Assembly (NCBI RefSeq): GCF_002688585.1
Contig: NZ_CP024034.1
Coordinates: 859,501-923,500 of the forward strand
DNA: 64,000 nucleotides
Source of the DNA: Candidatus Fonsibacter ubiquis
GTDB taxonomy: Bacteria > Pseudomonadota > Alphaproteobacteria > Pelagibacterales > Pelagibacteraceae
Direction: 5' to 3'
Shown: positions 25,754 to 30,381 of the stretch, piece after piece
Numbering within the stretch: position 1 is the first letter of the stretch
Layout: each line of letters begins with the position of its first letter
Translations under genes and position numbers: made by a program
Notes under the pieces: generated by a model
What the model saw: the letters and a program-made list of their open reading frames with translations, nothing else
What the model was told of the DNA's origin: nothing
Database searches by the model: none

Positions 25754-25764
25754 TTTCATTGCAA

Positions 25765-28700
25765 ATGATTGAAATAAAAGTTCCTGACATTGGTGATTTT
25801 AAAAATGTTGAAATTATTGAAGTCTTAGTAAAAGAAGGTGATCAGATTAAAAAGAATGATCCTATTCTAACACTAGAAAGCGATAAATCTAGTGTAGAGG
25901 TACCATCTCCGTTTGATGGAAAAATTGCTAGTTTAAAAGTAAAAGTTGGGGATAAAGTTTCACAAGGATCATTAATTGCAACACTTAGTAATGGCGTATC
26001 CTCAAATATACCTCAAGAAAAATCTATATTACCAGAGACAGAAAAAATCATTCAAGAAGCTGAAAAAGCTTTAAAAAAAATAGATCCTGAAAAAAAAATT
26101 ATTAAAGAGGAACTAAGGCAAAATTTTAAGACAAAAGTTGAGTTCAAAAAATTTACTAATTATTCCAATGAACAAGATAATATCGGCGATGTAGATCCTC
26201 AGGAAACTATTGAATGGATTGACTCATTAAATGGTGTTGTTGAAAGAGACGGACCAAAAAGAGCTAATTATCTTTTAGGTAAATTAATTAACCAAGCTTA
26301 TATTTCCGGTTCAAATTTACCCTATAATCAAAAAACACCTTATATAAATACAATCCCCAGAGAAATGGAAGTAAAGTCTCCTGGAGATCAGGTTATAGAA
26401 AATAAAATTAGATCTCTAATTAGATGGAACGCTGCATGTATGGTTGTGCGCGCTAACAAAAAGCTTCCAGAACTTGGCGGACATATTGCAACCTTTGCCT
26501 CTGCAGCAACTTTGTATGATGTCGGGTTTAATCATTTTTGGAAAGCTCAAAATGAGAAAAACTTAGGAGACTTAATTTATTTTCAAGGTCACTGTTCTCC
26601 AGGAATTTATGCGAGATCTTTCCTCGAAGGGAGAATAACAACAAAACAATTAGAAAATTTTAGACAAGAAGTTGATGGTGGAGGATTATCTTCCTATCCT
26701 CACCCATGGTTAATGCCGAACTACTGGCAATTTCCAACTGTATCTATGGGTCTTGGCCCTATTATGTCAATTTATCAAGCTAGATTTATGAAATATTTGC
26801 AAAATAGATCTTTAATAGAAGATCAAAATAGAAAAGTCTGGGCTTTTTTAGGAGATGGAGAAATGGATGAGCCTGAGTCAACGGGAGCCATTAGTTTAGC
26901 TGCTAGAGAAAAATTAGATAACTTAATATTTGTAATAAATTGCAATCTTCAAAGACTAGATGGGCCTGTGAGAGGAAATGGAAAAATAATTCAAGAAATG
27001 GAAGGATTATTTAGGGGAGCCGGCTGGAATGTAATAAAAGTTATTTGGGGATCTTATTGGGATCCTCTTCTTGCAAAAGATAAAACAGGTCTTTTATTAA
27101 AAAGAATGGAAGAATGTGTTGATGGTGAATATCAAGCATTCAAAGCAAAAGGGGGAGCTTATGTTAGAAGCCATTTCTTTGGAAAATACCCTGAATTAAG
27201 AGAATTAGTTTCAAATATGACAGATGAGGATATTTGGAAACTTAACAGAGGAGGTCACGATCCTCATAAAGTATATGCGGCGTATCATGCAGCCCAAAAT
27301 CATAAAGGATCTCCAACAGTAATTATAGCTAAAACCATTAAAGGTTATGGAATGGGTAAAAGTGGCGAAAGTATAAACACGACACACCAACAAAAAAAAT
27401 TAGATGTCAATGATATGTACTATTTTAGGGATCGATTTAATATTCCAATTACAGATAAACAAGTTGAAAACTTGGAATTTTATAAACCTGATGAAAAATC
27501 AGAGGAAATTCAATACATTAAAGAAAGAAGAAAACAGCTTGGGGGTTTTATACCAACGAGAAGAACTAAAACAAAAGCTCTAAAAACTCCAGCAAATGAA
27601 TTTTTTGAATCTTCATATCTAGATTCTGGAGATAGAGAATTATCAACAACTATGGCGCTTGTAAGTATACTTACTAAAATTTTAAGAGACAAAGAGTATT
27701 CATCAAGATTAGTTCCTATAATTCCAGATGAAGCTAGAACTTTTGGAATGGAGGGATTTTTTCAAAAAATTGGAATTTATGCTCATGAAGGCCAAAAATA
27801 TGAGCCCGTGGACTCTGAACAATTAAGTTCATATCGTGAGGATAAGAGCGGGCAGGTATTAGAAGAAGGGATCACAGAAGCAGGCGCTATGTCTTCGTGG
27901 ATAGCCGCAGGAACATCTTACTCAAATCATAATATTGAAATGATTCCTATATATCTTTTTTATTCAATGTTTGGTTTTCAAAGAATTGGTGACTTTGCTT
28001 GGGCAGCAGGTGATGCCCAATGTAGAGGATTTTTAATTGGAGCTACGTCTGGAAGAACCACTCTAGCTGGTGAAGGATTACAACACCAAGATGGACACAG
28101 TTTAATTATGGCTTCTACTATTCCAAATTGTGTAAGTTATGATCCAACTTTTTCATATGAGTTAGCAGTTATATTTGAGGATGGATTAAAAAGAATGCAT
28201 GAGAAACAAGAAAATGTTTTTTATTACATAACAACTTTAAATGAAAATTATAAACATCCGGCTATGCCAAAGGGTGTGAAAAAAGAGGACATCTTAAAAG
28301 GTATGTATTTATTTAAAGAGATTAATAATAAAGGAAAAACTAAAGTTCAATTACTTGGATCTGGAGCAATATTAAACGAGGTAATAAGAGCAGCAGAAAT
28401 ATTAAGCTCTGATTTTGGAATTGACTCTGATATTTGGAGTGTAACTAGTTTTAATGAATTAAGAAAAGATGCAATAGAAATTGAAAGAAAAAATTTACTA
28501 AACCCAGATAAAAAACCAGAAAAAACTTATATAGAAAAATGTTTTGAAAAGAGAACGGGACCTTTTATAGCAGCAACAGACTATATTAGAACATTATCAG
28601 AGGGAATTAGAAACTACGTACCAGGAACTTATGTAACTTTGGGAACAGATGGATTTGGAAGAAGCGATACGAGAAAAAATTTAAGAAAATTTTTTGAGGT

Positions 28701-28833
28701 TAATAAAGAATTTATTGTTTATTCAACATTAAGCACTTTAGTAAAAGAACAAAAAATTGCATCAAAAGTAGCCACTGATGCGATGAAAAAATATAATATA
28801 GATCCTAAAAAACCTATCCCAACTAAACTATAG
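25765..28833 (+). CDS. aceE: Pyruvate dehydrogenase E1 (homodimeric type) with N-terminal lipoyl domain fusion
   Basis: AceE decarboxylates pyruvate with thiamine diphosphate and reductively acetylates lipoyl groups of E2. The 1022-residue protein starts with a complete lipoyl domain (1-77; LTLESDKSSVEVPSP with candidate lipoyl-Lys41), a charged linker (about 78-138), then an AceE body from about residue 140 (DVDPQETIEW), co-linear with the E. coli enzyme. Seen in it are INTIP, IRWNAACMVVRA, YFQGHCSPGIYARSFLEGR, the TPP motif GDGE (363-366) and YITTLNENY. Standard AceE is about 887 residues, so the extra ~135 are the fusion. ATG 25765 is preferred over TTG 25759. aceF follows after 6 bp; no lpd is adjacent. 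Confidence 0.95.
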   Translation: MIEIKVPDIGDFKNVEIIEVLVKEGDQIKKNDPILTLESDKSSVEVPSPFDGKIASLKVKVGDKVSQGSLIATLSNGVSSNIPQEKSILPETEKIIQEAEKALKKIDPEKKIIKEELRQNFKTKVEFKKFTNYSNEQDNIGDVDPQETIEWIDSLNGVVERDGPKRANYLLGKLINQAYISGSNLPYNQKTPYINTIPREMEVKSPGDQVIENKIRSLIRWNAACMVVRANKKLPELGGHIATFASAATLYDVGFNHFWKAQNEKNLGDLIYFQGHCSPGIYARSFLEGRITTKQLENFRQEVDGGGLSSYPHPWLMPNYWQFPTVSMGLGPIMSIYQARFMKYLQNRSLIEDQNRKVWAFLGDGEMDEPESTGAISLAAREKLDNLIFVINCNLQRLDGPVRGNGKIIQEMEGLFRGAGWNVIKVIWGSYWDPLLAKDKTGLLLKRMEECVDGEYQAFKAKGGAYVRSHFFGKYPELRELVSNMTDEDIWKLNRGGHDPHKVYAAYHAAQNHKGSPTVIIAKTIKGYGMGKSGESINTTHQQKKLDVNDMYYFRDRFNIPITDKQVENLEFYKPDEKSEEIQYIKERRKQLGGFIPTRRTKTKALKTPANEFFESSYLDSGDRELSTTMALVSILTKILRDKEYSSRLVPIIPDEARTFGMEGFFQKIGIYAHEGQKYEPVDSEQLSSYREDKSGQVLEEGITEAGAMSSWIAAGTSYSNHNIEMIPIYLFYSMFGFQRIGDFAWAAGDAQCRGFLIGATSGRTTLAGEGLQHQDGHSLIMASTIPNCVSYDPTFSYELAVIFEDGLKRMHEKQENVFYYITTLNENYKHPAMPKGVKKEDILKGMYLFKEINNKGKTKVQLLGSGAILNEVIRAAEILSSDFGIDSDIWSVTSFNELRKDAIEIERKNLLNPDKKPEKTYIEKCFEKRTGPFIAATDYIRTLSEGIRNYVPGTYVTLGTDGFGRSDTRKNLRKFFEVNKEFIVYSTLSTLVKEQKIASKVATDAMKKYNIDPKKPIPTKL

Positions 28834-28839
28834 TTCAAA

Positions 28840-30381
28840 ATGGCTAAAATTGTTGATTTAGTTGTTCCTAATATTGGTGATTTTAAAAATGTAGAAATTA
28901 TAGAAATTCTTATATCAGAAAACCAAAATATAAAAAAAAATGATGGAATAATTACTTTGGAAAGTGACAAATCAAGTGTTGAAGTTCCCTCTCAGTTTTC
29001 AGGTAAAATTAAAACGATCAAAGTTAAAATTGGAGATAAAATTTCTGAAGGAGATAAAATTGGAGAGATAGAAATAACTTCTGATGAGATGACTCATGAG
29101 CAGGAATCTGTCAGTAAAGAAATTAAAATACAAGAGGAAAATAAATCCTACAAAGACAATGATACCTCTTTTTTAAAAATTCCAAATCTTGGCTCTGGAA
29201 AAGACTTATTTGTTACTGAAATTCTTATTAAAAAAGATCAGCTTGTTAAAATTGATGACATTGTATTACTCATTGAAGATGAAGAAAACGCTTACGAAAT
29301 TCCATCACCAATATCAGGAATTGTAAAGAATATAACGCTTAAAGAAGGAGAAAAAATTAGAGTTGGTGACTCAATTGCAGAAATCGTAAATCAGAATTTA
29401 AAAACAGAAATAAAAAGTAAACCTATTATTGAAAATATTATTTCAAATAATAATCAATATCAAAACATAAAAAGCGCAAGTCCAAAAATTAGAAAATTTG
29501 CAAGAGAACTAGGTGTAGATATTCAGTTAGTTGAGGGAAGCGCAAGAAAAGGTAGAATTCTTGAGGAAGATATTAAAAAATTTATTAAAGGATCTTTAAG
29601 TAATAAAAATATTAAAGAAGAAGTAGTAAAAAAAATAGAAATAAAAGAAGAAAGACTTCCCTATGAGCACGGGGAATTTGGTGAAATTGATATACAAAAA
29701 ATACCAAGAATTAAAAGGCTTTCAGGACCACATTTAGTAAAGGCCTGGAATGAAATCCCACATGTTACCCAATTTGATGAAATTGATGTAACGGATATGG
29801 AGCACTTTAGAAAAAATTTAATTGATCTTAATACAAAAGAGAAAATTACTATTACTCCCCTTGCTTTTATTATGAAAGCACTAGTTAACGGGATGAAAAA
29901 ATATCCTAATTTTAATTGCTCACTTGAGCCATCTAGTGAGAATATTATTTATAAAAAATATTATCACATTGGAATTGCTGTTGACACTCCGCATGGTCTA
30001 ATGGTTCCAAAAATTAGAAACATTGATCAAAAAGATCTACTAACCTTAAGCAATGAACTTAGAAAAATTAGTAAATTAAGTAAGGAACTTAAAATCGATA
30101 AAAAAGAATTTTTTGGAGGATCAATGACGATATCAAGTCTTGGTGGAATTGGGGGGAGTTTTTTTACTCCGATTATAAACAGTCCAGAGGTTGCAATTAT
30201 AGGAATAGGAAAAACAGAAACAAAACAAATATTTATTGATGGAAAATTCATACCAAGAGCAATGATGCCAATATCACTATCTTACGATCATAGAATAATT
30301 GATGGCGCGGAAGCTGCTAGATTTTGTCAAGATCTGAAACATAGTCTTGGAAAAAACTTTGCTTTTAATTTATCATTTTAG
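28840..30381 (+). CDS. aceF: Pyruvate dehydrogenase E2, dihydrolipoamide acetyltransferase
   Basis: E2 transfers acetyl from its lipoyl arm to CoA and forms the complex core. The 513-residue protein has lipoyl domain 1 (about 3-78; LESDKSSVEVPS, Lys44), a second lipoyl-like domain (about 112-182), a peripheral-subunit-binding domain (about 212-250; SPKIRKFARELGVDI), and a catalytic domain with HVTQFDEIDVTDME and the active-site motif DHRIIDG (483-489, His484). In the second lipoyl domain the expected DKS reads EEN: Glu149 replaces the modified Lys, so it cannot be lipoylated. Domain 1 is almost the same as the lipoyl domain fused to AceE. The gene is in an operon with aceE. Confidence 0.95.
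   Translation: MAKIVDLVVPNIGDFKNVEIIEILISENQNIKKNDGIITLESDKSSVEVPSQFSGKIKTIKVKIGDKISEGDKIGEIEITSDEMTHEQESVSKEIKIQEENKSYKDNDTSFLKIPNLGSGKDLFVTEILIKKDQLVKIDDIVLLIEDEENAYEIPSPISGIVKNITLKEGEKIRVGDSIAEIVNQNLKTEIKSKPIIENIISNNNQYQNIKSASPKIRKFARELGVDIQLVEGSARKGRILEEDIKKFIKGSLSNKNIKEEVVKKIEIKEERLPYEHGEFGEIDIQKIPRIKRLSGPHLVKAWNEIPHVTQFDEIDVTDMEHFRKNLIDLNTKEKITITPLAFIMKALVNGMKKYPNFNCSLEPSSENIIYKKYYHIGIAVDTPHGLMVPKIRNIDQKDLLTLSNELRKISKLSKELKIDKKEFFGGSMTISSLGGIGGSFFTPIINSPEVAIIGIGKTETKQIFIDGKFIPRAMMPISLSYDHRIIDGAEAARFCQDLKHSLGKNFAFNLSF

Follow-up and report, generated by a model that had tools for sequence, protein, structure and literature searches.

Introduction

In the textbook pyruvate dehydrogenase (PDH) complex the swinging arm sits on E2, the core of the complex. 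At the aceE-aceF locus of Fonsibacter, a freshwater member of SAR11, E1 (AceE) carries a lipoyl domain, and of the two lipoyl domains of E2 (AceF) the second, LD2, is without the lysine to which lipoate is attached. The locus thus raises two questions: what a lipoyl domain that cannot carry lipoate is kept for, and on which subunits the lipoyl arms of SAR11 sit. The presence of aceEF in SAR11 is known (PMC10030771). SAR11, among the most abundant groups of bacteria, offers a natural series: complexes with arms on both E1 and E2, complexes that have a dead copy in addition, and complexes in which E1 apparently has the only arm. With this series it can be tested directly whether substrate channelling requires an arm tethered to the core and what number of arms is needed, and the dead LD2 poses the separate question of the value of a lipoyl domain beyond lipoate carriage.

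The aceE-aceF locus

The window, i.e. the whole stretch of DNA that was analysed, comprises 64,000 nucleotides of a genome that consists of a single contig of 1,160,202 bp. It contains the following features, with aceF adjoining aceE.

25765..28833, + strand: aceE, pyruvate dehydrogenase E1 of the homodimeric type, lipoyl domain at the N-terminus (1022 aa, counted from the ATG at 25765)
25771..25986, + strand: AceE lipoyl domain (residues 3-74; PF00364, E=1.9e-21; LESDKSSVEVP, lysine intact)
28840..30381, + strand: aceF, dihydrolipoamide acetyltransferase E2, ordered LD1-LD2-PSBD-catalytic domain (ORF of 513 aa)
28852..29079, + strand: AceF LD1 (about residues 5-80; Lys44 intact; PF00364 and alignment)
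29173..29397, + strand: AceF LD2, degenerate, without lipoyl-lysine (about residues 112-186; PF00364, AF2 and Foldseek)
29284..29286, + strand: Glu149 codon GAA at the lipoyl-lysine position (alignment and codon reading)
29476..29574, + strand: peripheral subunit-binding domain, PSBD (residues 213-245; PF02817 profile, E=1.1e-10)
29695..30348, + strand: acetyltransferase catalytic domain (PF00198, E=3.1e-74; DHRIIDG intact, motif at residue 483)

AceE matches the homodimeric PDH E1 model TIGR00759 over residues 141-1020 with 1464.7 bits (cut-off 859.9) and keeps the residues H106, H142, D230, N260, E401, H407, E522, D549, E571 and H640 of E. coli AceE. An in-frame TTG is located at 25759, two codons 5' of the ATG. 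AceF shows the features of a PDH E2, with PSBD (PF02817), acetyltransferase domain (PF00198), the DHRxxDG motif in the form DHRIIDG and at least one lipoylatable lipoyl domain, LD1 with Lys44. Its score with the long-form model TIGR01348 of NCBIfam stays below the cut-off (437.7 versus 552.1 bits); the protein is shorter (513 aa versus 587 in the model) and LD2 is degenerate. Records from single-cell and metagenome-assembled genomes (MAGs) are 84-85% identical to it. LipB and Lpd are present.

Loss of the lipoyl-lysine

The earlier note had placed a second lipoyl domain without lipoyl-lysine at 29158-29380; the domain is there, but its extent was slightly off, the limits lying at about 29173-29397. 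The remainder of that description was borne out: IEDEENAYEIP of LD2 aligns with LESDKSSVEVP of LD1, with E149 opposite K44, the codons GAA GAA AAC stand as described (29275-29295 reads GAA(E146) GAT(D147) GAA(E148) GAA(E149) AAC(N150) GCT(A151) TAC(Y152)), and with glutamate at the attachment position LD2 is not lipoylatable in the normal way. The modified lysine at the hairpin, the mark of a functional carrier, is absent from all ten LD2s recovered, which belong to two genera and have Glu in seven cases and Asn in three. Glu is found in all LD2s recovered from the genus Fonsibacter (G000, G001, G003, G007, G009 and G010) and in G033 of genus g12, Asn in the other three of g12 (G065, G079 and G085). 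The loss is thus fixed in these relatives, and a lysine-bearing LD2, by which the earlier note would have recognized a local mutation or an error, is not among the ten. In the same alignment the lysine is kept in 62/62 other SAR11 AceE and AceF lipoyl domains and in 27/27 outgroup domains, taken from outgroup AceF and E3-size ORFs.

In the lipoyl-domain tree LD2 is monophyletic (SH-aLRT 98), has a long branch and is nested with the SAR11 lipoyl domains; its occurrence is confined to Fonsibacter and g12, two genera of one clade. It is absent from G012, which belongs to the genus Fonsibacter itself, from G072 and G023, and from the genera g7 and g9, and is therefore not essential. Since the LD2s form one clade that groups with SAR11 domains, a single origin and a single loss of the lysine are simplest; the simplest history would place the loss before the split of Fonsibacter and g12, followed by deletion of LD2 in G012, in G072 plus G023, and in g7 plus g9. 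A descent of LD2 from a multi-domain gammaproteobacterial AceF was rejected because the tree groups it with SAR11 domains, an argument weakened by the length of the LD2 branch.

Fold, surface and selection

PF00364 matches LD2 alone with E=1.7e-9 and 37.8 bits (cut-off 22.1), which makes it a true lipoyl-family domain. The conserved fold assumed in the earlier note is upheld by structure prediction: in the AF2 model of full-length AceF, LD2 has pLDDT values of 76-82 and the strand order of LD1 (the catalytic domain of this model, poor and mostly below pLDDT 50, was left out of use), and Foldseek matches the LD2 model to solved biotinyl/lipoyl domains, among them 1qjo of E. coli (TM 0.76) and 1iyu of Azotobacter (TM 0.79, both target-normalised). 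LD2 thus combines the PF00364 match with the barrel-sandwich fold of lipoyl/biotinyl domains. The AlphaFold model of isolated LD2 is mediocre (pLDDT 64.5).

In LD1 numbering, P10, L18, I23, I49, P50, S51, P52, G55, I60 and I74 are invariant among the LD2s, as are the IPSP..G stretch and the acidic residues E41 and D42 of the hairpin; the turn is wholly acidic, with EDEEN, EDDES or EDDNS. In the beta1-beta2 loop the residues G13-D14-F15, which hardly vary among working SAR11 lipoyl domains, are scrambled in LD2. This loop is known to contribute to the recognition of lipoyl domains by E1 (PMC6270654), and with lysine and GDF both gone LD2 seems to have lost its substrate-recognition surface as well as its attachment site.

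The comparison of dN/dS between the two domains, proposed earlier, separates them. Omega from pairwise codon models is 0.146 in LD2, against 0.039 in LD1 and 0.038 in the catalytic domain; the first linker (29 codons) has 0.182. For LD2, omega=1 is rejected at p=1e-7 in a pooled test of two closer pairs, which were used because pairs involving the window genome are mostly dS-saturated. These rates indicate that purifying selection on LD2 is relaxed but real; as the linker next to LD2 has a similar omega, selection may act mainly on length and composition and not on a specific interface.

Possible roles of LD2

As the rather likely explanation we favour that LD2 arose by duplication of a lipoyl domain, lost its lysine and is kept as a folded, non-catalytic module that serves as a spacer, contacts the E2 core weakly, or both. 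The lysine would most simply have gone a single time, before Fonsibacter and g12 separated; LD2 would since have been held between the working LD1 and the PSBD, while LD1 and the AceE lipoyl domain would ferry acetyl groups between the active sites of E1, E2 and E3. Within the swinging arm LD2 would most likely serve as a rigid spacer, bind the E2 core weakly by electrostatics, or both; in SAR11 at large, a lipoyl arm has come to lie on E1 and E2 has repeatedly lost its own. The retained acidic hairpin would be compatible with docking as in E. coli, where acidic residues of lipoyl domains dock electrostatically on the E2 core (PMC8421416). Whereas the missing lysine, the single LD2 clade, its fold, the purifying selection on it, its dispensability, the lipoyl domain of E1 and the relatives with an E2 devoid of lipoyl domains can be read from the sequences, the spacer or docking role of LD2 and acetyl transfer by the AceE arm are inferred.

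Alternatively, LD2 may be a decaying relic with no present role, which persists only as its deletion from AceF has not yet occurred in these lineages. This reading stands because LD2 has an omega similar to the linker's and because several close relatives (G012, G023, G072, g7 and g9) are without the domain, and the long LD2 branches and a dN about 3-5 times faster than in LD1 also speak for it; we regard it as unlikely, since omega is clearly below 1 (p=1e-7), the structural residues are invariant, and open frame and fold are kept in 10 genomes of two genera.

It is quite unlikely that LD2 is an active docking domain for E3, E1 or the E2 core, with the acidic hairpin replacing the contact made by the lipoyl-lysine. 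This alternative overlaps with the spacer and weak-contact explanation and differs from it in making a specific interface the main role of LD2. The invariant E41/D42, the acidic turn in all its three forms (EDEEN, EDDES and EDDNS) and the binding of the acidic face of lipoyl domains by the E. coli E2 core (PMC8421416) fit it, but the LD2s of the two genera are so divergent (LD2 is 27% identical to L044) that apart from the hairpin they show no conserved surface for binding, the net charge is about that of LD1 (-4 versus -5), and relatives do without the domain. That a single genome was mutated locally or misread in sequencing, suggested only by the first sighting in one genome, is practically ruled out, as none of the ten LD2 sequences has the lysine; these come from different genomes of two genera, single-cell genomes and MAGs among them.

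Lipoyl arms in the SAR11 family

The lipoyl domain that the earlier note had recognized on AceE is present in the window genome, with a PF00364 match and intact lysine, and in all SAR11-family genomes with a readable AceE N-terminus, as a single copy except in g9 and some members of g12, where there are two. Both tandem copies have the lysine in L061 and L062 (g9) and in L060 and L081 (g12). The motif ESDK[SA] is intact in 46/46 E1 lipoyl domains, which are candidate targets of lipoylation in the cell, and LipB is present. In L172 (G200) and L153 (G337) the lipoyl domain and the core of AceE lie in different frames, split near poly-A runs; these breaks may stem from sequencing errors or slippage, or the lipoyl part may truly be a separate, free protein. 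Some SAR11 genomes possess a second, more distant AceE paralog of about 890-900 aa without lipoyl domain (G020:C1:12940-13575, G033:C15:7411-8016 and others).

The domain is not a general feature of AceE: in other Pseudomonadota the matches begin only at the core, and the proteins fetched, long ORFs included, have no lipoyl domain. A lipoyl-bearing AceE was also not found in the sister family of the order. SAR11 AceE and AceF lipoyl domains cluster together and apart from nearly all outgroup domains (support 97; PdhB lipoyl domains were left out of this tree), which suggests that lipoyl domains were copied between the neighbouring genes aceE and aceF in SAR11.

In 33 checked SAR11-family genomes of several genera AceF is without any lipoyl domain, e.g. 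L155 (G311), L066 (G014) and L073 (G013). These proteins start a few residues ahead of the PSBD (e.g. MSDQSIKTSASPKVRKFARELG), all keep DHRxxDG, and are encoded directly downstream of a lipoyl-bearing AceE. Their ATG lies 0-6 nt past the AceE stop wherever both are readable, so that a lipoyl domain hidden upstream in another frame was rejected for these loci. Parsimony on the combined AceE and AceF tree gives five changes for the trait, at least four of them forced by well-supported branches.

In most of these genomes that were searched, PF00364 matches only AceE, a SucB-size ORF and an ORF (about 140 aa) resembling AccB; G017 is without one of the three, and G074, for which no AceF match was found, was left out. 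A stand-alone lipoyl protein or a lipoyl-bearing E3 was rejected for them on this basis and on that of Lpd, which in SAR11 (466-479 aa) has no lipoyl domain. Of seven genomes checked, six have LipB; the seventh is 78% complete. Because the PF00364 matches are so limited and Lpd is without lipoyl domain, the only lipoyl arm of PDH in these genomes would be that of AceE; the genes show this, whereas the working of such a complex is inferred. We therefore hold it for probable, with good confidence, that in many SAR11 the only swinging arm of PDH would be on AceE, with an E2 reduced to PSBD and catalytic domain, and that LD2 of Fonsibacter would be a by-product of the same loosened placement of lipoyl domains.

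The earlier note had read LD2 and the AceE lipoyl domain as signs that lipoyl arms were redistributed from E2 to E1. At the family level this is supported by the AceF proteins without lipoyl domain in other SAR11 genera, but it is not supported for LD2 or for the window genome, in which E2 is not stripped, as LD1 keeps its lysine. The AceE lipoyl domain, found throughout the SAR11 family, is older than LD2, which occurs in two genera only, so that the decay of LD2 did not accompany the move to E1. Judged from the genes, the evidence for a redistribution is the full loss of lipoyl domains from AceF elsewhere in SAR11, and not LD2.

Comparison with known systems

The SAR11 lipoyl architecture, including an E2 without lipoyl domain, was not found reported in the open literature, to which the search was confined. 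An E1-borne lipoyl domain and an E2 served by the arms of another subunit are each known; it is their combination in SAR11 that was not found described.

In alphaproteobacterial PDH, as described in Zymomonas and Sinorhizobium, the E1-beta subunit PdhB has an N-terminal lipoyl domain (NCBIfam NF008854/PRK11892). About half of 41 sampled alphaproteobacterial genomes match this model from end to end, the lipoyl part included. As in SAR11 the lipoyl domain is on an E1 subunit, but E1 is of the alpha/beta type instead of AceE, and E2 has retained its own lipoyl domain in those of the fetched loci in which it is readable. E. coli shares with SAR11 the homodimeric AceE (58% identical over the core) and with the window AceF the order of tandem lipoyl domains, PSBD and catalytic domain, but its AceE is without lipoyl domain and its AceF has three, each with the lysine.

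Neisseria P64k (PDB 1gjx), an E3 with a lipoyl domain, likewise bears the arm on a peripheral subunit, whereas SAR11 Lpd does not; lipoyl-bearing E3-size ORFs are located behind aceEF in several outgroups. In Corynebacterium OdhA an E2 catalytic domain is served by lipoyl domains of another subunit (PMC7568260), as proposed here for SAR11, but OdhA is an E1o-E2 catalytic fusion of ODH, and its arm comes from AceF and not from E1. The adaptors of HlyD/RND efflux systems resemble LD2 in the structural use of a lipoyl fold without modified lysine, and HlyD profiles match LD2 weakly; LD2 differs from them in being nested with the PDH lipoyl domains of SAR11 and in its tandem position in AceF.
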